DNA from: Nitrospirota bacterium
GTDB taxonomy: Bacteria; Nitrospirota; Thermodesulfovibrionia; SZUA-242
DNA: 35,205 nucleotides
NCBI GenBank assembly: GCA_027021335.1
Contig: JALUUO010000074.1
Span: forward strand, 1-35,205
Reading direction: 5' to 3'
Positions 19,928 through 32,383 of this stretch are shown one piece after another. The notes beneath the pieces were generated by a model, which did not search any database, was not told where the DNA came from, and was given only the letters and a program-made list of their open reading frames with translations. How positions within the stretch are numbered: position 1 is the stretch's first letter; every line of letters starts with the position of its first letter. A program made the translations under genes and the position numbers.

Positions 19928-21358
19928 GTGAAGTTAAATTTTGAACATAAAACAATCCGGCGACGTCTTGCAATACTATTTGCCGTTATCTTCTGCCTTA
20001 TAGTTCTTCTTGTTGCATCACTGATTTCAAACACCTTTGTGCTAAAGGCTGATTTCTTTGCCATAGAGAGTTTCTATAGTTTCTTCAATAACGTATTGGA
20101 GTTGCGTCGATACGAGAAGAACCTCTTGTTCAAGGGAGAGTCCGAAAACTACAAGCAAGTGATCGAGTACCTGGACCGCCTTGAACAAGATAGCGATGCC
20201 CTGGACAGTGAGATCAGAAAAGTGGCTAACAGCAGCGCTGTTGCCGAGTTTCGCCTTGACCTTTCACATTACCGGAGTTTTGTGGAAAAAGGTCATAAAA
20301 GCGGCAAATATAATGTCGCATTGATTCGGCATATTGGGAAGAAACTAGTGGACTTTTCCCAACATCTTATGTTTGTCAAACGGAATCAGATTCATCGTGC
20401 CATCAAGTGGACAACCATTATTTTTGTTGCGGTGACCTTGGGCGTTTTTATTCTGGCAGTCATGGTCTTTTACTCCCAGACACGAAGTATTTTAAGACGG
20501 CTTTCACTTGTGCAACAGGCCGCAATGGAAGTAGCGCATGGACATTTTGTATCAATTCCGGAGGTTGTCAAAACAAAAGACGAGATCTCCGGTCTAATTC
20601 ATGCCTTCAATAAGATGGTAGAGGAGCTGGACCTGAGACAGGAGCAGTTACTAAAGGCCAGAAAGTTGGCGGCTATCGGCACATTTTCCTCCGGTATCGC
20701 TCATGAACTCAACAATCCTTTAAATAATATTTCTTTGACTGTAGATACCCTTCTGGAAGAGTTTGAGACGATTTCCCGCGAGGAAGCCCGAGAGTTTCTG
20801 GACGATATTGCAAAGCAGACAGAGCGGGCTAGTACAGTTGTGAAGAACTTGCTGGATTTCTCCAGAGAAACTCTTCCCACAGAAAGCCGTATGCAGGTGC
20901 TTGACGTCATCAGGTTGACCGGAAAACTGGTTGAAAACCAGCTGCGTCTTTCCTCTATCAGGCTGGAATACAACCTGCCTGAAGATCTGCCGCCGATCCG
21001 TGGAAACTTTCAGAAGTTGCAGCAGGTTTTTCTTAATCTCTACCTGAATGCCATACATGCAATGCCGAAGGGCGGACGTATCCGAATCTCAGGAGCCCGT
21101 GACCCTGAAGGGTATATCCGGATTGATTTTTTGGATACCGGCTCAGGCATCCCCCCTGAAAAGCTGGACCGTATCTTCGATCCTTTTTTTACAACAAAAC
21201 CGGTTGGCAAAGGAACCGGGCTTGGGCTATCGATCGTTTACGGAATCGTCCAGAAACACGGAGGCTATGTCGAAGTAAAAAGCGAGATCGGCAAGGGAAC
21301 CATATTTTCCATTTACCTGCCGGCTCCAGAAGAGGAACAAAGCCATGACGTCAATTAG
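19928..21358 (+). CDS. Membrane sensor histidine kinase (HAMP/HisKA/HATPase)
   Basis: This 476-residue kinase has two membrane helices (about 14-36 and 161-181) enclosing a mostly helical periplasmic sensor of about 125 residues (four-helix-bundle type by eye). HAMP (about 182-235) and HisKA with His259 in [14 protein letters not shown] follow. The ATPase domain has the N-box Asn373, DTGSGIP (402-408) and GKGTGLGL. The NNPL motif and the NtrC-type partner place it among NtrB/ZraS-like kinases. The GTG at 19928 is the only plausible start, and the small inverted repeat CACGGT/ACCGTG (19888-19893, 19925-19930) overlaps it. It overlaps the regulator gene by 14 nt. The signal is unknown. Confidence 0.92.
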
Positions 21359-22694
21359 AGCAGCGGTCATTGACGATGAAGAACCGGGTGCCCGCTTGAT
21401 TGCGAGGGTGCTGGAGCAGGAAGGATTTTCGGTCGAAATCTTCAACCTTGGGCACCCATTTCTGGAGCGTATGCGTCAGCAACCATTTCAGGTTGTCTTT
21501 ATTGATCTGCATCTTCCTGATATGGACGGAATGGATATTCTCAGGCGCCTGCGTGTTGCGTATGAAGATACAGAGGCCATAATCGTGACCGGAAACGCCT
21601 CCATAGAAACAGCCGTGGAAGCAACAAAAATAGGGGCCTTTCACTACTTGACAAAGCCCTGTAAACGCTATGATATCCGTCTTCTGGCCCGGCGGGCAGG
21701 TGAAAAGCTGGAACTTCGTCGGGAAAACCGGCGTTTAAAACTTGCCATGGGGCGTGATAATCTCATACCCGGCTTTGTGGGAACGAGTGCTGTCATGCAG
21801 GATGTATTTGCGGTTGTCAAAAAGGTTGCTCAGGTTAACTGCAATGTCCTGTTGCAGGCCGAAACCGGCACAGGAAAACAGATGGTGGCACGGGCGATTC
21901 ATTCGCTCAGCCCCCGTAATGAGAAGCCATTTGTCTACTTCAACTGTGGAGGATTTACAGAAGAACTGATCGCAAGCGAACTTTTCGGTCATGAAAAGGG
22001 GGCTTTTACCGGCGCTACATCGGCCAAACCCGGACTTTTCGAGGCAGCCTCGGGTGGAACAGTGCTGCTTGACGAAATAGGTGAAATGCCTTTTTCTATG
22101 CAGGTAAAACTTCTCCATGTTCTCCAGGAACGAGAAGTGCTTCGCGTTGGAGGTATCAAGCCGGTTAACCTTGATGTACGAATAATTGCGGCCACAAATC
22201 AACAGTTACAGAGCCTTGTAAATTCCAACCGTTTCCGGGAAGATCTCTTCTACCGTTTAAATGTAGTAAATATCCGCCTGCCTCGTCTAGCAGACCGCAG
22301 GGATGACATTCCACTTCTGATCACGTATTTTCTCGATAAATTTAACACGGCTTTCAGTAAACAGGTCAGAAGAATAGCTCCTCAGGCAATGGAGTTATTG
22401 AACTTCTACGATTATCCCGGTAACGTGCGTGAGCTTGAAAACATTATACAACGGGCTGTTGCGCTTGCAGAAGGCAGCGAGATTCGTATAAGCGATCTGC
22501 CGGACCGTTTCCAGAAAATGGCACAGGCCGGCATGGGAGATGGTACGTTTCTACCTCTTGCAGAAGTAGAAAAACTACATATTCAGAAGGTTCTGAAAGC
22601 AACAGGATTCAATAAAAACCTGGCCAGCCAAATTCTCGAAATTCCACGAACTACGCTGTGGAGACGAATGAAAAAGTTCGGCCTGGACGGGTGA
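21345..22694 (+). CDS. Sigma-54-dependent response regulator (NtrC family)
   Basis: This enhancer-binding activator has 449 residues. The receiver domain has the acidic pair Asp10/Asp11, phosphoacceptor Asp54 (VVFIDLHLPDMDG) and Lys104. The AAA+ domain has Walker A AETGTGK (172-178), the sigma-54 contact loop GAFTGA (219-224) and Walker B TVLLDEIGE. A Fis-type helix-turn-helix (NKNLASQILEIPRTTLWRRMKKF) closes the protein. An Ala replaces the usual first Gly of Walker A, while the rest of the loop is normal. Its start lies within the kinase gene. The target is probably the sigma-54 promoter about 300 bp downstream, which drives the tauE cluster. Confidence 0.94.
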   Translation: MTSIRAAVIDDEEPGARLIARVLEQEGFSVEIFNLGHPFLERMRQQPFQVVFIDLHLPDMDGMDILRRLRVAYEDTEAIIVTGNASIETAVEATKIGAFHYLTKPCKRYDIRLLARRAGEKLELRRENRRLKLAMGRDNLIPGFVGTSAVMQDVFAVVKKVAQVNCNVLLQAETGTGKQMVARAIHSLSPRNEKPFVYFNCGGFTEELIASELFGHEKGAFTGATSAKPGLFEAASGGTVLLDEIGEMPFSMQVKLLHVLQEREVLRVGGIKPVNLDVRIIAATNQQLQSLVNSNRFREDLFYRLNVVNIRLPRLADRRDDIPLLITYFLDKFNTAFSKQVRRIAPQAMELLNFYDYPGNVRELENIIQRAVALAEGSEIRISDLPDRFQKMAQAGMGDGTFLPLAEVEKLHIQKVLKATGFNKNLASQILEIPRTTLWRRMKKFGLDG

Positions 22695-22987: not shown

Positions 22988-23002
22988 TGGCATAGCACTT
23001 GC
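22988..23002 (+). promoter_or_regulatory. Sigma-54 promoter (-24/-12)
   Basis: TGGCAT-AGCAC-TTGC fits the consensus TGGCAC-N5-TTGC in all but one base, with the GG and GC dinucleotides at the correct distance. It lies just before the tauE gene and after a sigma-54 activator gene carrying GAFTGA, which strongly supports it. Confidence 0.82.
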
Positions 23003-23110
23003 CATGAAATATGGCGGCCAGGAGTAGCGGGGCGGCCCGATTTGTCCAGCAATCATGCTTCGCTTAAGCCGGGCAAAAACAAACATCAGTGATAAGGAGG
23101 AATGGAAAAA

Positions 23111-24040
23111 GTGTGGCACATGTATCTTCCCATTGCGGGAAACAGCGTTAACGTATTGACAATAGTCGGACTCGGTGTTGGAGTCGGCCTGCTGTCCGGC
23201 ATTTTTGGAGTAGGCGGCGGTTTCTTGATGACTCCGCTGCTCATCATGTTTGGCATTCCACCAACCGTGGCAGCGGCATCGGATTCCAACCAGATAGTTG
23301 GAGCATCCACCTCAGGAATGCTCGCCCACTGGCGGCTGGGAAACGTGGACATAAAAATGGGCATTATGCTGCTGATCGGTGGAATAATAGGCGGCACCGC
23401 AGGTGTGCAGGTTATAAAGCTTCTGCGCGCCATGGGAAACGCCGACTTCCTGATCACGATCACCTATGTCATCATGCTGGGTGGAGTTGGCTCTTACATG
23501 TTTATCGAAAGTCTGCAATCTATGCGGAAGAAACCTGACGCAAACCCTGAAAAGATTCCCGACAAAAAAGAGTCTACATATGCCCGGCTGATAAATAAAC
23601 TGCCCATGCAGACCAAGTTCAATAGATCAGGTGTCGAAATGTCACTCATACTGCCGTTGCTGCTTGGTATCCTGGTTGGCGTGCTATCGGCGATCATGGG
23701 TGTAGGCGGCGGCTTTATCATGGTGCCGGTAATGGTATACCTGCTTCGGATGCCTATGCACGTAGTTGTTGGAACCAGCTTGTTCCAAATACTCTTCACT
23801 TGCATGAACGTGACCGTTATGCAGGCTGTCAGTAATCACACCGTGGATTTTGTGCTTGCTTTGCTTCTGCTGATTGGTTCAACTGTTGGCGCACAACTTG
23901 GTACCAGAGTAGGAAAAAAGCTTAAAGGCGATCAGCTGAAGATCCTCCTTGCATCTCTGGTATTACTGGTCTGCGGAAAAATGCTGTTGCAGTTATTGCA
24001 GCAACCGTCCGTACTGGTAGCCATAGCAGGAGGTCATTAA
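23111..24040 (+). CDS. TauE/SafE family membrane transporter (putative sulfite/organosulfonate exporter)
   Basis: This inner-membrane permease of the TauE/SafE family exports or imports small anions, such as sulfite or sulfoacetate, in characterised members. About eight helices form two homologous halves, each opening with the family's glycine-rich motif: GLLSGIFGVGGGFLMTPLL and GVLSAIMGVGGGFIMVPVM. A charged cytoplasmic loop (RKKPDANPEKIPDKKE) links them. The start is chosen at GTG 23111: AAGGAGG (23094-23100) lies 10 nt before it but only 1 nt before the in-frame ATG at 23102. ATG 23120 is a third option. First gene after the sigma-54 promoter, it is followed 2 nt later by the TIGR02186 gene. 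The substrate is not proven. Confidence 0.88.
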   Translation: MWHMYLPIAGNSVNVLTIVGLGVGVGLLSGIFGVGGGFLMTPLLIMFGIPPTVAAASDSNQIVGASTSGMLAHWRLGNVDIKMGIMLLIGGIIGGTAGVQVIKLLRAMGNADFLITITYVIMLGGVGSYMFIESLQSMRKKPDANPEKIPDKKESTYARLINKLPMQTKFNRSGVEMSLILPLLLGILVGVLSAIMGVGGGFIMVPVMVYLLRMPMHVVVGTSLFQILFTCMNVTVMQAVSNHTVDFVLALLLLIGSTVGAQLGTRVGKKLKGDQLKILLASLVLLVCGKMLLQLLQQPSVLVAIAGGH

Positions 24041-24042
24041 TT

Positions 24043-24810
24043 ATGAACATGAAAAGACATGCTTATGCTATTTTAATTAGTCTGGTTTTTTTCTGCCTGA
24101 CCACCCTTCAGGCATCAGCATCAGCCGATGTAGTTCTCAGCCTGGCGCATTCCGATATTGGTGTAGGCACATTTTATAACGGCACAACACTCCATGCGTC
24201 CGGTACAGTGCCTGCTGGTGCTGATGTTGTCGTTGCCGTCAGTGGAGAGCCTGAAGAACTCCACATGAAACGAAAAGGCAAAGCCGCTGGTCTGTTCTGG
24301 ATGAATACCGGCAATCTAACATTATCTAATGTGCCACAGATATACATGGTATACACCAGTGAGATGGATGCTTCTATTTTGGAGTCTGAAGATATGCCCT
24401 TCAGTCTGCCGGCGTTGAGAAATCGCGTTGAAATCACGACCGAAGACAAGCAAGATGAAGATATGCTTTTTGGAGAATTCATAAAGCTGCAAAAAGAGCA
24501 ATCCGTCTACGCTGTCAATCCGGGAACCATCTCTCTGAAAGAGAATGGACATTATAATGTTGAACTGACACTTCCACCACGCATTAAACAGGGTGATTAT
24601 ACTGTTACAACTTATGCTGTAGAAGATGGACGGGTTATTGCGACTGCAACCGCAAACCTCAATGTCGTTCTAACCGGGTTTCCTGCCTGGCTTTCCAAGA
24701 TGGCTTTTCAGAATGCCTTGGTTTACGGCATTCTTTCGGTTTTGATTGCGTTGGCAGCAGGACTACTCATGGGTGTACTCTTTAAGGATGCCGGCGATGG
24801 CGCGCATTGA
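24043..24810 (+). CDS. TIGR02186-family membrane-anchored periplasmic protein
   Basis: The protein has 255 residues: a signal peptide (cleavage near ASA, about residue 28), a beta-rich periplasmic domain, and one C-terminal membrane helix (about 226-246) with a short cytoplasmic tail. The pattern DVVLSLAHSDIGVGTFYNGTTLHASGTVP matches a family of unknown function (TIGR02186) that is typically encoded beside TauE/SafE exporters, as here with a 2-nt gap and an AGGAGG Shine-Dalgarno inside the tauE end. It probably works with the exporter as a periplasmic partner. The biochemical role is unknown. Confidence 0.8.
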   Translation: MNMKRHAYAILISLVFFCLTTLQASASADVVLSLAHSDIGVGTFYNGTTLHASGTVPAGADVVVAVSGEPEELHMKRKGKAAGLFWMNTGNLTLSNVPQIYMVYTSEMDASILESEDMPFSLPALRNRVEITTEDKQDEDMLFGEFIKLQKEQSVYAVNPGTISLKENGHYNVELTLPPRIKQGDYTVTTYAVEDGRVIATATANLNVVLTGFPAWLSKMAFQNALVYGILSVLIALAAGLLMGVLFKDAGDGAH

Positions 24811-24905
24811 TTCCAATCTGCATACGGTGATAAATAAAAGAACCTGTTACCCAGAGGGCTTTATGTATTATAAACTGATGCTGCCAGGCCGGAAATAACA
24901 AAGTA

Positions 24906-27515
24906 ATGATGGAGTCTGCAAATATTCACGTGAATCGACTGCCCGATTGGATACAACGAGCCTTTAAAAGCAGAAAGGCAATACGGGGGGCGCATTCCGC
25001 CCTTGTCGGACGCTTTCAAAGGTTTCAGGAGATTCTGTCTTTAAACAACCAGATTCTCCAACATATCGCTGATGCAAACAACAAGCTTAGTGGCGATTAT
25101 GTATTTGATCAGCGTTACGTACACACAAGTTCCAAAAATATTATCGGTCTTGTGGAAAAACTCGTTTATACGCTCGATGCCCTGGCGCCTGGAAAGTATC
25201 GCACGCTGCGTACAGTTTTTACCCGTATTCAAACAGAGATAGAACAGGAGCTTTCAGGACATCAAACCAAGGTATCAACAACTTTTGTGATTAATTACAA
25301 TAAGATATCCCACAACTCCATGGACGAAGTCGGAGCAAAAAGCGCCAATCTTGCAAAGGTCCACTCAGATCTCGGGCTTAAAATTCCTCGAGGTTTTGCG
25401 CTAACTGCATCCGCCTACCATGCTTTTATGACAGTCAACTCTTTAGAGCCGATGATAACCGGGATATACAAAGACTGGAAGGCAGAAAAAATCTCACTTA
25501 ATAAAGCCTCGGCCACTATACAAAGCCGAATTCAAAGCTGTTCGCTTCCGGCAAAACTGGAGCATGAACTAAACAGCGCTGTTAACTCGCTTATTCAGGG
25601 ACGCAGGCCGCTTATTGCGCTACGAAGCAGTGCCTGGCACGAGGACCGGCAGCACAGTTTTGCAGGACAGTACAAAACTGTTTTGAACATTCCGGCTGCA
25701 GAAGTCAGAGACGCGTATCGCAAGGTTTTGGCAAGCCTGTACAGCGAAAACGCCATGGTTTACCGGCACGAACAGGGATACCGGGAGCATGAGGTGGCTA
25801 TGCCTGTTGCATGCCAGGAGATGATAGATGCATCTGTAAGCGGAGTGCTTTACACCCGGGACCCCAGTATGCCGGAACGGGATACTTTAATAATGAATGC
25901 AACATGGGGCCTTGGTCTGCCCTTGGTTTCAGGAGAGGCCGGTGCGGACCGGTTTACAGTAAGCCGGGGTACATCTTTAAAAATTACCTCCATTCACGTA
26001 GCCAGAAAAAAAACTGCTCTACGGCTGAACATGAAAGGTGGAACCCGGATTGAAAACATAGAGCCAAGGATGCAGAGCCGTGCATGTCTTTCGATAAAAC
26101 AGGTCTTGGAAGTTGCTGAGGCAGGTGTCATGATCGAAAATGCTTTCAGACAGCCCCACGATATTGAATTTGCTTTTGACGAACTTGGACAACTCTTCAT
26201 CCTGCAGGCCCGTCCTCTAGCTCTTCGTCCAAGCAGGGTTGTCAAAGCAAAAGATCTTGCCGAAATTCTTTCAAACAGGGCGATTCTTTTAAAAGAACAG
26301 GGCGAGATCGCTCAACGAGGCATTGCCTCCGGGCCTGTCTTTGTCATTGAGTCAAAAGAAGATCTCGATAGTTTTCCGGACGGTGCTGTTTTGGTGGCTA
26401 AAACAGCTTCTCCGGTCCTTGCAAAAGTTCTGTCCCGGGCGGCAGCTCTGCTTACCGACGTGGGAATGGTTACAGGCCACCTGGCAACCGTAGCTCGTGA
26501 GTTTAGGGTGCCGTCTATTTTAAACTGTGGTAATGTCTCGACACTTCTAAGTAGCGGACAGAGCGTGACGGTTGACGCTGAAGACAACATTGTTTACGAG
26601 GGAATTGTTCCGGAACTACGTGACTACGCCCTCACCGAAGAACCAATTGAAGAGACTTACGAGTATAGACTGCTCCGGCGGGTCTTGAAAAAGATCGAAC
26701 CCTTGAGGTTGGTTGAACCTTTCGGAGAAAATTTCACGCCGGAAGACTGCCACAGCCTTCACGATATCACCAGGTTTGTGCATGAAAAGGCTGTCGAAGA
26801 ACTGATTCGCGGAACTCTGTATCGCGGGCGGGCGGCAAAACGTGCTCCACGGCTTGACTGGCATATTCCCCTGGATCTGTTTCTGATAGATATAGGGGGA
26901 GGTCTGCAGCCTGGTGCAGGAAACCGGATAACTCCAAAAGAGATCATTTCAACTCCGATGAAAGCCATTCTAAGGGGCATTGCCGTCCCTGGCGCCTGGG
27001 ACAGCAAACCAATGTCTGTAGATTTTACGAGTTTCATGTCGAGCTTAACTCGAACAACAACACCGGAGCTTGCAAAAACAGGATTTTCCGGACAAAACCT
27101 GGCTGTTTTATCAAGTCGGTACGTAAATCTCAGCCTGCGTCTTGGCTACCACTTTACAATGATCGACTCTTATGCGTCTGAGAGAGTTGACGACAACTAT
27201 ATTTATTTCCGTTTTTTTGGCGGAGTTACTGATGCAAAACGCCGTTCGCGCAGGGCACAATTTCTTGCCGACTCTCTAGCGCTGAACGACTTTAGAGTCG
27301 AGCTGCAAGGAGACCTTGTCATAGGCCGACTTAAGGGGATGGAAGAGCGGATCTTAATGAACCGGCTCTTTCTTCTCGGGGTAATGATAAGCTTTACCCG
27401 CCAGTTGGATCTGCGTATGATCAATGACAACGATGTTTCCCGTTTTGTTGAAAAGTTCAAAACAATTGTGGAGGAATCAGATGGGCACAAAAACCAGCAT
27501 TTTGATCTTGGATGA
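24906..27515 (+). CDS. PEP/pyruvate-binding multidomain protein (PEP synthase-like, without the usual C-terminal barrel)
   Basis: The protein has 869 residues. An N-terminal helical region (1-125) of unknown function precedes an ATP-grasp PPDK_N domain (about 135-440) with VGAKSANLAKV (142-152), LRSSAWHED (239-247), PHDIEFA (417-423) and LQARPL (433-438). A swivelling phosphohistidine domain follows (about 470-570) with His525 in VTGHLATVARE. PEP synthases then carry a PEP-binding barrel. Here residues 580-869 show no such motifs and instead contain RVDDNYIYFRFFGG. It may therefore move phosphate from ATP to its own His or to a partner rather than make PEP, which is inference. It overlaps the next response-regulator gene by 35 nt. 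ATG 24909 is an equal alternative start. Confidence 0.82.
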   Translation: MMESANIHVNRLPDWIQRAFKSRKAIRGAHSALVGRFQRFQEILSLNNQILQHIADANNKLSGDYVFDQRYVHTSSKNIIGLVEKLVYTLDALAPGKYRTLRTVFTRIQTEIEQELSGHQTKVSTTFVINYNKISHNSMDEVGAKSANLAKVHSDLGLKIPRGFALTASAYHAFMTVNSLEPMITGIYKDWKAEKISLNKASATIQSRIQSCSLPAKLEHELNSAVNSLIQGRRPLIALRSSAWHEDRQHSFAGQYKTVLNIPAAEVRDAYRKVLASLYSENAMVYRHEQGYREHEVAMPVACQEMIDASVSGVLYTRDPSMPERDTLIMNATWGLGLPLVSGEAGADRFTVSRGTSLKITSIHVARKKTALRLNMKGGTRIENIEPRMQSRACLSIKQVLEVAEAGVMIENAFRQPHDIEFAFDELGQLFILQARPLALRPSRVVKAKDLAEILSNRAILLKEQGEIAQRGIASGPVFVIESKEDLDSFPDGAVLVAKTASPVLAKVLSRAAALLTDVGMVTGHLATVAREFRVPSILNCGNVSTLLSSGQSVTVDAEDNIVYEGIVPELRDYALTEEPIEETYEYRLLRRVLKKIEPLRLVEPFGENFTPEDCHSLHDITRFVHEKAVEELIRGTLYRGRAAKRAPRLDWHIPLDLFLIDIGGGLQPGAGNRITPKEIISTPMKAILRGIAVPGAWDSKPMSVDFTSFMSSLTRTTTPELAKTGFSGQNLAVLSSRYVNLSLRLGYHFTMIDSYASERVDDNYIYFRFFGGVTDAKRRSRRAQFLADSLALNDFRVELQGDLVIGRLKGMEERILMNRLFLLGVMISFTRQLDLRMINDNDVSRFVEKFKTIVEESDGHKNQHFDLG

Positions 27516-27867
27516 CGAACCTATCGTCATAAAAAGACTGAAGCCGTCTCTGGAAAAAAAAGGCTACGAGGTTGAGGCTTTCACAGACAGCAGAGAGGCC
27601 CTTGCAAGGGTTCAAGAACAGGCGTTTGATATCGTTGTGACCGACCTGAAAATGGAAGGAATTGATGGCATGCAATTTCTTGAGGCTGTAAAGGAAACCT
27701 CGCCGGAAACAGAGGTTATAGTTATTACCGGATTCGCCACGATGGAGACGGCCAGAGAGTCATTCCGAAAGGGTGTTTCGGATTTTCTTGCAAAGCCGTT
27801 CAAACTGGGTGAGATAGTTGAAGCCATCGCAAAAGCGGAAGCAGAGCAAAAGAAAAAACGGGGGTAA
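27481..27867 (+). CDS. Single-domain response regulator (CheY-like)
   Basis: This 128-residue stand-alone receiver domain has the acidic pair Asp11/Asp12, phosphoacceptor Asp55 (VVTDLKMEGIDG), Thr83 and Lys105 (FLAKPF). The start is the ATG at 27481 behind a GGAGG 6 nt upstream. An in-frame ATG at 27424 has no homology and would overlap the PEP-domain gene further. There is no output domain, so it must act by protein contact or by phosphotransfer. Being translationally coupled to a phosphohistidine-domain protein, it may receive or relay its signal. A short Lys-rich tail ends the protein. Confidence 0.9.
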   Translation: MGTKTSILILDDEPIVIKRLKPSLEKKGYEVEAFTDSREALARVQEQAFDIVVTDLKMEGIDGMQFLEAVKETSPETEVIVITGFATMETARESFRKGVSDFLAKPFKLGEIVEAIAKAEAEQKKKRG

Positions 27868-27872
27868 GAATT

Positions 27873-28718
27873 ATGTGGAGGTCATTGATCTACCTTGATG
27901 AAGACCTGCCTTCAAGCATAGCTTTACGGTTTGCTGCGGAACAGGCGAATAAAACAGGCGGACGCTTGCAGGTCTTACATGTTGAAGACCCGGGAAAGAA
28001 AGCCGCTCCGGGTACGGGCTGGGTTCGAAGGTCCTGGGAACAGGGCCTTATAAAGGCAGGGTTGGATGAAGTGCATCGCCTGTTAAAAACAGAAAAGGTT
28101 AACTGTCCCCACATCAGTTCACCAAAGATTTTGGTCGGAAGCCGTGACGATGAAGTTTTAAATGAGTTGCGGCATGGTATGTACGACCTGTATGTGGAAG
28201 GGTACCTTAATACGTCGAGCACAAAAGATTTTTTAAAACTCCTAAACGGCAAGCGTTTTCAAAACACAACCTGTCCGGTAATGCTGGTGAAAAACATGGT
28301 TCCGGTTCACAACATATTGATTCTAGCCGGCGAAGCGGTACCTTTTGAAGTGCTACTTCCGTACTTTGAAAAGATCTACGGAACTTTCGACGGACAACTC
28401 GATATCACCATGCTTTACTACCGGTTTGGAGAAGAGAAGGAACTCGTCTTCCAGGCAAGAGAAGAGGCCGGTTCGTATCTCTACAAAGCTGAAGAGATGC
28501 TAGCTGCAGCGGGCTGGGAAGACGTAGAATGCCAAGTGGTTCAGGGCACACCGGAGCAGACGGCAGTTTACATGCGTAATTACGGCCTGGTGTTTTCAAG
28601 TTTTCCAAGCCGGCAAACACCCAGGGCAGAACTTTTAGCCTTGCTTTCAAACCCTGTACTGCTTTGCAAGCCTAAAAAAGCCCGCTCGAAAAAAGCCGGG
28701 AAAGGAGGTTTGATATGA
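27873..28718 (+). CDS. Universal stress protein, two degenerate USP domains (copy 1)
   Basis: The protein has 281 residues and reads as two UspA-like alpha/beta domains in tandem (about 1-143 and 144-270). Each ends in a strand of the type CPVMLVKN or PVLLCKP, as USP folds do. The classical ATP-binding G-x2-G-x9-G-(S/T) signature is not evident in either half, so ligand binding is uncertain. It begins 5 nt after the response regulator and its stop overlaps the next USP gene (ATGA). The C-terminus is basic (KKARSKKAGKGG). Confidence 0.75.
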   Translation: MWRSLIYLDEDLPSSIALRFAAEQANKTGGRLQVLHVEDPGKKAAPGTGWVRRSWEQGLIKAGLDEVHRLLKTEKVNCPHISSPKILVGSRDDEVLNELRHGMYDLYVEGYLNTSSTKDFLKLLNGKRFQNTTCPVMLVKNMVPVHNILILAGEAVPFEVLLPYFEKIYGTFDGQLDITMLYYRFGEEKELVFQAREEAGSYLYKAEEMLAAAGWEDVECQVVQGTPEQTAVYMRNYGLVFSSFPSRQTPRAELLALLSNPVLLCKPKKARSKKAGKGGLI

Positions 28719-29554
28719 AGCTTCTGGTTGTGGTAGATGCCGAAGAGTACAGCCGTCAAGCGGCACGTATTGCTGCGCGTTTCGCGATTAATACCTGGGC
28801 GGATGTAACGATTCTTGCTCTGCAGGCCAAAAATGGAGATACCCTCAATGCCAGGCTCTTAGATGCATTACCAGAAATTCAATGCATGTTTTTAGGCAAT
28901 GACTCTCCCTTTGGAGAGTACAAGGATACCGGTTTTCAAGCTGTTTCTGATGGCACTTGGGAGATGGATAGAACCGGCTCCGACGGCCGAAAACAGCTGA
29001 AAGTCTTGGTTCGGCGTGGAGACTGGCTTAGGATAGTCTCGGAACAACTTGAACAAGAGCAGGCCGATTTCCTTTTTCTTGGTGCATCGTCAGATAAGCC
29101 CGAGTGGGAGGGAGAACTGCGTTTTCCGCAAAAAGTGGCTGCCACAGTTCCTTGCTCCTCTTTTGTGGTTAAGGGTTCAAGCATGGGAAAGACCCTGGTT
29201 TGCTGTCTGGACCAGGCGAGTGTGAGCCAGGAATCCCTCGAAATTATCAATCAATTGGTTACCATACAGGAAGCCGAACTGAAAATAGTCGGCCTGACCG
29301 GTCCACACGGATTACGCGAAAAAGTAGAAGAACGGATGATGCAGGTTCTTCGCTACTATACTGAACGCGGAGTTCGCGCCTGGGTCAGACTGGTGAATGA
29401 AGAAGAGCTGCCGGCTTTTGCACACGAGGCATCGAAAACCGGAACGCTTGGACTATGGCTTGGTAAAAAATCGCTGTTGACAAAGTTTTTTTCCAAGGAC
29501 CGGTTGGAACAGTTCATAACGGCTTCCGAATCATCGGTTGTGATTCTGAAATAA
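28715..29554 (+). CDS. Universal stress protein, two USP domains (copy 2)
   Basis: This 279-residue protein is a second tandem USP. The first domain opens MKLLVVVDAEEYSRQAARIAARFA, the classic UspA start, and ends FLGASSDK...VPCSSFVVKG (about 122-152), a reduced form of the nucleotide-binding loop. The second half opens TLVCCLDQASVSQESLEIINQL and ends SSVVILK. It probably pairs with copy 1, since the two are coupled by a 4-nt overlap and are similar in length and layout. Function is inferred as stress or energy-state sensing beside an ion antiporter. Confidence 0.78.
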   Translation: MKLLVVVDAEEYSRQAARIAARFAINTWADVTILALQAKNGDTLNARLLDALPEIQCMFLGNDSPFGEYKDTGFQAVSDGTWEMDRTGSDGRKQLKVLVRRGDWLRIVSEQLEQEQADFLFLGASSDKPEWEGELRFPQKVAATVPCSSFVVKGSSMGKTLVCCLDQASVSQESLEIINQLVTIQEAELKIVGLTGPHGLREKVEERMMQVLRYYTERGVRAWVRLVNEEELPAFAHEASKTGTLGLWLGKKSLLTKFFSKDRLEQFITASESSVVILK

Positions 29555-29639
29555 TTTTAAAATAGTTATGAAATAATCCTTAAATAGTATCGTTGTTAAA
29601 AATACTTTATATTTTCTAAGTGTATTAATGGAGGCAAAA

Positions 29640-31055
29640 TTGAAAAAGTTGTCGGTTTATTTTTTTACAAGTATGTTTTTAGTGTTAGGTTTTTGTTCAC
29701 CGGTCCTGGCTAATGAAGGAGCTACACGCCTGCTGTCATTGGTAAATCACCCGGCAGGTTATATCTCGATTACTGTCTTTATCATTGCGTACCTTCTGGT
29801 GATGTCCGAAGAGTTTTCTATGATGAGAAAATCTAAACCAGTGGTACTTGCGGCCGGAATTATATGGGTAGTCATAGCTATTGTATATGCCAGGCACGGT
29901 TTTACCCATGCGGCAGAAAACGCGGTGCGCCAGAATATTCTGGAATTTGCCGAGCTGATGCTGTTTCTCCTGGTGGCCATGACATATATCAATGCGCTGG
30001 AGGAGCGGCTTGCCTTTGAGGCGCTACGTTTCTGGTTGGTCAGCAAAGGGTTTACATACCGACAGATGTTTTGGTTTACCGGTATTCTCGCCCTGTTTCT
30101 CTCACCTGTTGCCGACAACCTGACCACCGCTTTGGTGATGTGTTCAGTTGTCATGGCTGTAGGTTCCGACAATTCACGTTTTGTTGGAATCAGTTGCATT
30201 AATATCGTGGTAGCAGCTAATGCCGGTGGCGCCTTCAGTCCGTTTGGCGATATTACAACCCTTATGGTATGGCAGAAGGGCATCGTAAATTTCTGGACAT
30301 TCTTCTCGTTATTTATACCATCCATGGTGAACTTTCTGGTTCCAGCCATGCTAATGCACTTTGCCGTTCCTGCCGGCCGACCTGAAGCTCCTGTCGAAGA
30401 TGTAGTGGTGATGAAGCGTGGAGCCAAAAGCATCATGGTGCTTTTTTTGTTGACAATAGTCACGGCGGTAAGCTTCCATAACTTTCTGCATCTGCCGCCA
30501 ATGCTTGGAATGATGACAGGCCTGGCCTACCTGCAGCTCTTTGGTTATTACCTGCGCCGTACCCATAAAAAAGTCATAGCTGCAGATGCCGATAACAACA
30601 AGAATACTGATAACTCTTTTGATATCTTCCGTAAGATCTCCCGCGCTGAATGGGACACCCTACTCTTCTTCTATGGAGTAATCCTCTGTGTCGGAGGACT
30701 GGGTTTTATAGGTTATCTAAGTATGGCTTCCGAGTTAATGTATGGACAGTGGGGAGCAACTTTTGCCAATACCGCCGTGGGCGTGCTTTCATCTATCGTT
30801 GATAATATTCCGGTGATGTTTGCGGTATTAAGCATGGAGCCGGGAATGCCCCAGGGACAATGGCTGCTGGTTACTCTCACTGCCGGCGTAGGTGGCAGCC
30901 TGCTCTCAATCGGCTCTGCGGCCGGAGTGGCCCTGATGGGGCATGCCAAGGGCAAATACACATTCTTTGGTCATCTGAAATGGACCCCGGTAATTGCACT
31001 TGGATATGGTGCCAGCATTATTACCCATATTTGGATCAATGCTTCAATGTTTTAA
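29640..31055 (+). CDS. nhaD: Na+/H+ antiporter, NhaD type
   Basis: This inner-membrane sodium:proton antiporter has 471 residues and about twelve helices. The family region FLSPVADNLTTALVMCSVVMAVG and the later SSIVDNIPVMFAVLSM each keep an acidic residue in an N-rich helix, typical of the ion-transport superfamily. A signal-like N-terminus (MKKLSVYFFTSMFLVLGFCSPVLA) precedes the first helix, a known feature of NhaD. The start is TTG 29640: TGGAGG (29629-29634) is 5 nt before it but overlaps the in-frame ATG at 29628. The gene lies 85 nt after the USP pair, in the same direction, and may be the last of that operon. Together with NQR it implies a sodium cycle. Confidence 0.88.
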   Translation: MKKLSVYFFTSMFLVLGFCSPVLANEGATRLLSLVNHPAGYISITVFIIAYLLVMSEEFSMMRKSKPVVLAAGIIWVVIAIVYARHGFTHAAENAVRQNILEFAELMLFLLVAMTYINALEERLAFEALRFWLVSKGFTYRQMFWFTGILALFLSPVADNLTTALVMCSVVMAVGSDNSRFVGISCINIVVAANAGGAFSPFGDITTLMVWQKGIVNFWTFFSLFIPSMVNFLVPAMLMHFAVPAGRPEAPVEDVVVMKRGAKSIMVLFLLTIVTAVSFHNFLHLPPMLGMMTGLAYLQLFGYYLRRTHKKVIAADADNNKNTDNSFDIFRKISRAEWDTLLFFYGVILCVGGLGFIGYLSMASELMYGQWGATFANTAVGVLSSIVDNIPVMFAVLSMEPGMPQGQWLLVTLTAGVGGSLLSIGSAAGVALMGHAKGKYTFFGHLKWTPVIALGYGASIITHIWINASMF

Positions 31056-31078: not shown

Positions 31079-32383
31079 CTAAGCCTTGCAACCTTCGGTC
31101 AGTTCTGCGTCGAACATGCCTTTAAGAATCTTGGACGCGCAGAACTCACCGCACATCGTACAGTGCTCTTCGTCCGCTCCTCCTCTTTTACTGCGGACAT
31201 CCCTGGCCTGATCAGGAGTGATGGCCAATTCAAACTGCTCTTTCCACTTCAGGTCGCGTCTTGCCTTGCTCATGGCAAGATCGCGGCTTTTATCTTTGAA
31301 CTTAACCATATCTCCCACGTGCGCTGCAATGCGAGCGGTAATAACTCCTTCGCGCACATCTTCCGGGTAAGGCAGGCCCACGTGTTCCGCAGGCGTGACA
31401 TAGCATAAAAAGTCGGCTCCGAAAGAACTTGATATCGCCTGTCCTATGGCGGCTGTAACGTGATCGTACCCTGGAGCAATATCAGTGGTGATCGGCCCCA
31501 GCATATAGAACGGAGCCTCGTTCGACATACGCTTTTGAACGATGATGTTTGCTTCTATTTCGTCGATGGGTATATGTCCCGGACCTTCCACCATCATCTG
31601 GCAGCCCATTTTTCTTCCAGTATCTGCAAGCTCACAGTTGATGATCAGCTCTTGAATCTGTACGCGGTCGGTGGAGTCTCCAATTGCTCCAGCCCGAAAA
31701 CCATTTCCAAGCGAAAGCACCACATCATGTTTTTTTAAGATAGCAGCTACACGGTCAAAGTGCTCATAAAGAGGATTTTCTTTATTGTTATGAAGCATCC
31801 AGGCCGTCAAGTAGGACCCTCCCTTTGATACCAGGCCGCCAAAGCGGTAGTTCTGGTTTCGAAGCCTCTCTATGGTCATACGGTTTATGCCACAGTGTAT
31901 AGCCATAAAGGAAACTCCCTCTTCGCACTGCTGCTCTATAATATCAAAGAGAAATTCTTCCGGCATATCTATAGCGGCGCCGTACTTATCTATAGCCAGG
32001 GCAAATGCCTCGTAGAGCGGCACTGTGCCGACAGGAAGACTTATCGAATCCATGACTCTTCGCCTGATATCAGCGATATCACCACCCACTGAAAGATCCA
32101 TAAGTGTGTCAGCGCCTGCCTCTTCAGCTATTTGCGCCTTTTTTATCTCCATCTCCACATCAGCTATGGAAGTGGAAGTGCCTATGGATGCATTTATTTT
32201 TGTTTTAAGACCTTTGCCTATTCCGACAACATTGGTCTTACGGTTTTTGTTGTTGGGAATGACTATATGACCCTCGGCCACTCTTCTAAGTACGCTTTCC
32301 ACTGGCAGAGCCTCATCATCGGCCACCTGCCTGATTTCTTCGGTTATCTCGTTTTTTACGGCTTTTTCAACCTGGCTGCTCAT
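31079..32383 (-). CDS. thiC: Phosphomethylpyrimidine synthase ThiC
   Basis: ThiC is the radical SAM enzyme that rearranges aminoimidazole ribotide into the pyrimidine of thiamine. It has 434 residues, the short form lacking the long N-terminal domain of enterobacterial ThiC. The barrel is complete (KTKINASIGTS, TLMDLSVGGD, MEGPGHIP, GPITTDIAPGYDH). The C-terminal cluster motif reads CTMCGEFC (Cys408, Cys411, Cys415): C-x2-C-x3-C, one residue shorter than the C-x2-C-x4-C of Escherichia coli. It converges on nhaD with a 23-nt gap. A GGGGTGAGG Shine-Dalgarno lies upstream. No TPP riboswitch could be recognised in its leader. Confidence 0.95.
   Translation of the reverse strand: MSSQVEKAVKNEITEEIRQVADDEALPVESVLRRVAEGHIVIPNNKNRKTNVVGIGKGLKTKINASIGTSTSIADVEMEIKKAQIAEEAGADTLMDLSVGGDIADIRRRVMDSISLPVGTVPLYEAFALAIDKYGAAIDMPEEFLFDIIEQQCEEGVSFMAIHCGINRMTIERLRNQNYRFGGLVSKGGSYLTAWMLHNNKENPLYEHFDRVAAILKKHDVVLSLGNGFRAGAIGDSTDRVQIQELIINCELADTGRKMGCQMMVEGPGHIPIDEIEANIIVQKRMSNEAPFYMLGPITTDIAPGYDHVTAAIGQAISSSFGADFLCYVTPAEHVGLPYPEDVREGVITARIAAHVGDMVKFKDKSRDLAMSKARRDLKWKEQFELAITPDQARDVRSKRGGADEEHCTMCGEFCASKILKGMFDAELTEGCKA

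Follow-up and report, generated by a model that had tools for sequence, protein, structure and literature searches.

A PEP-synthase-like dikinase lacking the PEP/pyruvate barrel, with a novel C-terminal domain and a conserved receiver partner

The window (the whole 35,205-nucleotide stretch of Nitrospirota DNA analysed here) encodes a PEP-synthase-like protein of 869 residues, which has the ATP-grasp and phosphohistidine domains of a dikinase, carries a novel domain in place of the PEP/pyruvate barrel, and is encoded next to a stand-alone receiver. The domain order, the catalytic residues, the novelty of the C-terminal domain and the gene partnership can be read from the sequence or the structural model; from these we infer catalysis, phosphorylation of His525, an acceptor site and control by the receiver. 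The explanation we prefer, with a probability of about 0.5, is that the protein is a dikinase of the PEP-synthase/PPDK/RPH superfamily with a new acceptor domain, regulated by a receiver that is fed by a histidine kinase. The features of the locus are:

19928–21358, + strand: sensor histidine kinase (HAMP-HisKA-HATPase), upstream (Pfam)
21345–22694, + strand: NtrC-type sigma54 response regulator, upstream (Pfam)
22988–23002, + strand: candidate sigma54 promoter core TGGCATAGCACTTGC 5' of the TauE gene, weak on its own
23102–24040, + strand: TauE/SafE family permease, conserved operon partner (Pfam, neighbourhood)
24043–24810, + strand: Alph_Pro_TM (PF09608)/TIGR02186-like protein, conserved operon partner
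24906–27515, + strand: PEP-synthase-like dikinase P0001, 869 aa (ORF, PPDK_N and PEP-utilizers matches, family alignments)
24906–25280, + strand: N-terminal helical domain, residues 1–125 (model; no Pfam match; conserved F40, L44, N47)
25323–26246, + strand: ATP-grasp domain (PPDK_N), residues 140–447 (Pfam, alignment, fold match)
26373–26582, + strand: swivelling phosphohistidine (PEP-utilizers mobile) domain, residues 490–559 (Pfam, alignment)
26478–26480, + strand: His525 codon (sequence, alignment to PEP synthases)
26607–27512, + strand: C-terminal domain without known family, residues 568–869, replacing the PEP/pyruvate barrel
26760–26786, + strand: C-terminal motif H619-D620-x2-R623-x2-H626-E627, proposed acceptor site (conservation)
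27470–27474, + strand: Shine-Dalgarno-like GGAGG for the receiver, within the dikinase coding sequence (sequence)
27481–27515, + strand: 35-nt overlap of the dikinase 3' end and the receiver 5' end (ORFs, sequence)
27481–27867, + strand: stand-alone CheY-like receiver, 128 aa, ATG at 27481 (ORF, Pfam, alignment)
27873–28718, + strand: UspA-like protein 1 (Pfam)
28715–29554, + strand: UspA-like protein 2 (Pfam match below the cut-off)

The dikinase gene is far from a chance reading frame, because many genomes of its class contain full-length homologues (34–51% identity). Pfam places PPDK_N at residues 140–447 (E 9e-77) and the mobile domain PF00391 at residues 490–559 (E 2e-15), with no match in residues 1–125 or 570–869. 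The Lys/Arg/Glu/Gln/Arg catalytic set of the ATP-grasp domain is present and conserved (K145, R240, E246/D247, E421, Q434 and R436), and His525 aligns with the catalytic histidine of solved PEP synthases, in agreement with the initial annotation, which had taken both domains to be intact. By its sequence, the protein is thus a member of the ATP-grasp/swivel-His dikinase superfamily. Its ATP-grasp and swivel domains resemble those of RPH, PEP synthase and HpeI in a Foldseek search, with a target TM-score of 0.90 to 5hv6, whereas the PEP synthase 2ols (28% identity) is matched over 464 columns only. The order of ATP-grasp and swivel His and the catalytic residues are the same as in PpsA (PEP synthase, or pyruvate, water dikinase), from which the present protein differs by the missing barrel, the extra N-terminal helices and the new C-terminal domain. 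Consistently, the PEP synthase models TIGR01418 (306.9 against a cut-off of 739.75) and NF005057 (319.9 against 598 bits) score well below their thresholds and align only to about residue 570. The rifampin phosphotransferase model NF041857 likewise reaches 212.8 against 999 bits, and the His domain lies centrally in the dikinase.

The whole protein was modelled with AlphaFold2 from an alignment of 77 sequences (pLDDT 85.7), and three N-terminal helices are predicted, at residues 14–61, 69–93 and 99–116. The C-terminal domain, modelled alone (pLDDT 84), is predicted to adopt an alpha-beta fold that is not a (beta/alpha)8 barrel. Structure prediction of the two terminal parts had been suggested as a check in the initial annotation, and its outcome, together with the lack of any Pfam family in the first 125 residues and after residue 559, bears out what was claimed there, namely that the N-terminal segment is unfamiliar and that the PEP-binding barrel is absent. 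No PDB fold matches the C-terminal model at E ≤ 0.001 in Foldseek, Pfam recognises no family (E ≤ 0.01) in any of 85 homologous C-terminal domains, and a sequence-profile search with the domain finds no PDB chain at E ≤ 1. The domain is therefore novel as judged by sequence and predicted fold. A hidden PEP barrel is excluded by Pfam, the PDB profile search, the predicted fold and the fold search. Weak structural matches to 2plg and 4h5b (E 0.04–0.06, query TM-score about 0.2) were not used to identify the domain.

In the family alignment H619, D620, H626 and E627 never vary and R623 hardly does; H749, D754 and R783 of the same domain are likewise invariant. In the mechanism that we propose, the ATP-grasp domain would transfer the beta-phosphate of ATP to His525, yielding AMP and Pi, and the swivel domain would bring the phosphoryl group to the C-terminal domain; there, a site lined by H619, D620, R623, H626 and E627 would pass it on to a small-molecule or protein acceptor. 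There are precedents for such an exchange of acceptor domains on one dikinase chassis, as RPH uses another acceptor domain for another substrate (PMC4844700), and so does HpeHI (PMC12167813). Both share with the present protein the chassis joined to a non-PEP acceptor domain, and they provide its closest ATP-grasp folds (5hv6 and 9goj); however, the C-terminal domain described here is without fold or sequence match, and the His domain of RPH is not central but stands at the C-terminus, behind the rifampin-binding domain. A further relative is VadK (M. tuberculosis Rv1127c), a PPDK relative which also lacks the barrel and autophosphorylates on the equivalent histidine (PMC13400623). This precedent would favour a regulatory role, in which the protein acts as a protein histidine kinase on metabolic enzymes and has no small-molecule substrate. 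We consider this improbable for the present protein, since VadK ends after its His domain, whereas here about 300 conserved residues with an invariant polar cluster follow, in the position of a substrate domain. The VadK paper mentions no receiver partner.

All 141 members in which the ATP-grasp residues and His525 are complete retain the H-D-R-H-E motif, which is changed in five of the seven members in which the ATP-grasp domain is defective or His525 is lost, a damage that is not due to contig ends. The changed members are L102 and L090 (R623H, dead ATP-grasp), L143 (no ATP-grasp, His525 to Tyr, R623H and H626N), and L141 and L142 (no ATP-grasp, E627Q); L144 and L080 are the exceptions, with the motif unchanged. 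Fisher's test gives p = 4e-8, a value that ignores kinship and so overstates the association, and the changes span about three independent changed lineages of five. An acceptor site inside the protein would be expected to decay together with the dikinase, and the motif is indeed changed mainly in defective members, which would point to such a site; we regard the association read from these sequences as suggestive. Two observations count against the preferred explanation: L080 has lost His525 and kept the C-terminal motif, and L142 and L144, which naturally lack the ATP-grasp domain, keep His525 and an adjoining receiver, which a pure dikinase would not need. L144 has only an ATP-grasp remnant and may be decaying.

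The defective members differ in what they retain. L141 (6024–7667), L142 (4945–6576) and L143 (5063–6688) have lost the whole ATP-grasp domain and kept the N-terminal helices, the His domain (in L143 without the catalytic histidine) and the C-terminal domain. L090 (9327–12029) and L102 (3481–6189) are tandem paralogues directly 3' of a receiver gene, with degenerate ATP-grasp residues and His525 retained. In L145 (5002–7430) the dikinase is present as two overlapping ORFs, one with the ATP-grasp part and the other with the His and C-terminal parts; by analogy this split recalls the two-component dikinase HpeHI (PMC12167813), and it may reflect a frameshift instead of a fission.

The receiver of the window is a complete domain (PF00072, E 4.5e-31), in which the acidic pair D11 and D12, the phosphoacceptor D55 (codon 27643–27645), T83 and K105 are present and conserved. 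Its partnership with the dikinase, already pointed out in the initial annotation, is widely conserved: 95 of 122 members have a stand-alone receiver at a distance of 1 kb or less, against none of eight true PEP synthases and none of six members with a lectin-like C-terminal extension, both used as internal controls, in counts that take no account of kinship. Many of the remaining members are second or third tandem copies in operons with a receiver further off. The receiver is found 3' on the same strand in 47 cases, 5' on the same strand in 32 and 3' convergent in 16. In a tree that includes NtrC-type receivers, and is limited by the short alignment, the convergent receivers cluster away from the co-oriented classes, closer to certain receivers of the NtrC type, and L144, L149, L151, L161 and L162 form a third, small and separate group. 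The adjacent receivers thus probably derive from three lineages, and from at least two, as far as this tree can tell. Given these separate lineages and the three gene orders, the link looks functional and not that of a frozen operon. No description of a dikinase–receiver gene pairing was found in the literature covered by our search, outside whose scope most subscription papers lay.

The initial annotation had also described the two genes as translationally coupled through their 35-nt overlap. The overlap is real, but it is not conserved in relatives, where the receiver start ranges from 68 nt within the dikinase gene to 393 nt past it, and in other homologous loci the receiver lies 5' of the dikinase gene or on the opposite strand. 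Coupling is possible from the sequence, but not needed, since the receiver has its own GGAGG. The dikinase–receiver fusions apparent in L150 and L151 seem to be ORFs extended out of frame or by read-through, with frames inferred from coordinates. The 1060–1082 aa subfamily (L048, L050, L051, L052, L146, L147 and L148) has no receiver neighbour and carries an extension of about 220 lectin-like residues, with a weak PF21708 match just below the cut-off.

The initial annotation suggested a relay from ATP through the PPDK-type histidine to the receiver; in such a relay, His525, phosphorylated from ATP, would be the phosphodonor to Asp55. The conserved adjacency, the intact receiver active site and the report of a barrel-less PPDK relative as a histidine kinase (PMC13400623) speak for it; however, ordinary HisKA kinases lie near the receivers in many loci, the C-terminal polar cluster suggests another acceptor, and our literature search found no published transfer from a swivel domain to a receiver. 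Such a relay would moreover predict loss of the His or ATP sites in receiver-free members, yet the six extended members without a receiver keep every catalytic residue, so that the relay is not favoured and we consider it very unlikely. Of the initial annotation, the barrel-less protein, the uncharacterised terminal parts and the receiver partnership are supported, and the transfer from His525 to the receiver is not supported. The opposite flow, from a histidine kinase through Asp55 to His525, with the swivel domain as an HPt-like acceptor, would explain why L142 and L144 retain His525 and an adjoining receiver without an ATP-grasp domain, and why the ATP-grasp-degenerate paralogues L102 and L090 retain His525 beside a receiver. 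These forms are nevertheless rare, divergent or truncated, nearly all members have an intact ATP-grasp domain, L143 has lost His525, and there is no HPt-like helical bundle around this residue; we consider this flow very unlikely as well.

In the explanation that we prefer, a membrane histidine kinase would have the stand-alone receiver as its output, and the receiver, once phosphorylated, would most likely bind the dikinase and switch it. The kinases adjoining the receivers are sensors of the ordinary HisKA/HATPase type and contain HAMP, Cache, PAS or Tll0287-like parts. The arrangement is like that of histidine kinases with single-domain response regulators of the CheY or Spo0F type, with an output-less receiver and a HisKA kinase nearby, the difference being that the apparent output is here the gene of a dikinase-like enzyme. 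Against this counts that the nearest kinase in the window is paired with the NtrC regulator and does not adjoin the receiver. As it is encoded next to a single-domain switch in hundreds of sulfur-cycle bacteria, the protein is probably a new ATP-driven phosphorylating enzyme under sensor control, and the dikinase likely makes a phosphorylated product under two-component control. The broader idea of a widespread system, in which the dikinase is physically wired to a two-component receiver and either trades phosphoryl groups with it or is switched by it, is more tentative and we hold it to be rather unlikely; if true, two-component signalling in sulfur-cycle bacteria would have a metabolic phosphohistidine engine as its output or input arm.

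The gene neighbourhood could also be explained by a shared regulon only, in which the dikinase, the permease, the UspA proteins and the receiver respond to the same stress and the receiver has a target other than the dikinase. TauE and TIGR02186/Alph_Pro_TM genes lie directly upstream in 45 of 74 members, and Usp genes downstream in 19 of 74 (genome collection and window). In D. vulgaris, a cluster of histidine kinase, sigma54 response regulator and Lon-type response regulator controls adjoining genes for membrane and UspA-domain proteins, and DVU3298–3305 is treated as a general stress cluster (PMC3333781); we liken the two loci by description only. DVU3299, a putative anion transporter encoded in that neighbourhood, is important under chlorate (PMC10102598). 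Nevertheless, the receiver adjacency persists without TauE, TIGR02186 or Usp genes, and the receivers occur on either side, on the opposite strand and are of unrelated kinds, which makes a shared regulon alone a rather unlikely explanation. The conserved operon, with NhaD nearby, offers a testable stress or anion-handling context. The sigma54-like site TGGCATAGCACTTGC lies 114 nt 5' of the TauE start and 3' of the kinase/NtrC-type pair. The strict sigma54 pattern is present in 4 of 83 regions upstream of TauE, window included (background 0.003 per region), and is thus enriched but not general, so that a conserved promoter was rejected.

The C-terminal domain was detected in 107 of 297 Desulfobacterota, 85 of 296 Nitrospirota and 10 of 199 Acidobacteriota genomes in whole-genome samples, and at more than 575 places in one genome-collection scan. 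Roughly one third of the Desulfobacterota and Nitrospirota species sampled carry a protein of this class, often more than one copy of it, with up to seven per genome among the matches listed. Such proteins are easily named PEP synthases by homology although the PEP-making half is absent, and a correct label removes a false gluconeogenesis call. A separate PPDK-type gene of canonical appearance lies on another contig of the genome studied here, and therefore the barrel-less dikinase is not needed to explain PEP formation. A search for plasmid transfer found the C-terminal domain absent from plasmids. Phage carriage was rejected, as phage matches cover the ATP-grasp and His domains only, and so was a defence system, with no meaningful PADLOC match.

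In trees, the dikinase and the receiver of the window, with those of a single relative of the same family (G001), fall inside a mainly Desulfobacterota clade, and the other relatives of the class, which appear to be Nitrospirota, group apart. The gene order of the operon at 23102–29554 is also of the Desulfobacterota type, and horizontal transfer of this operon into the present Nitrospirota lineage is likely on these phylogenetic grounds. Beyond the UspA genes lies an NhaD-type Na+/H+ antiporter gene (29628–31055), followed by thiC, for the thiamine biosynthesis radical SAM enzyme (31079–32383, − strand), and several homologues (e.g., L040, L042 and L049) have NhaD-like genes at most about 7 kb away.
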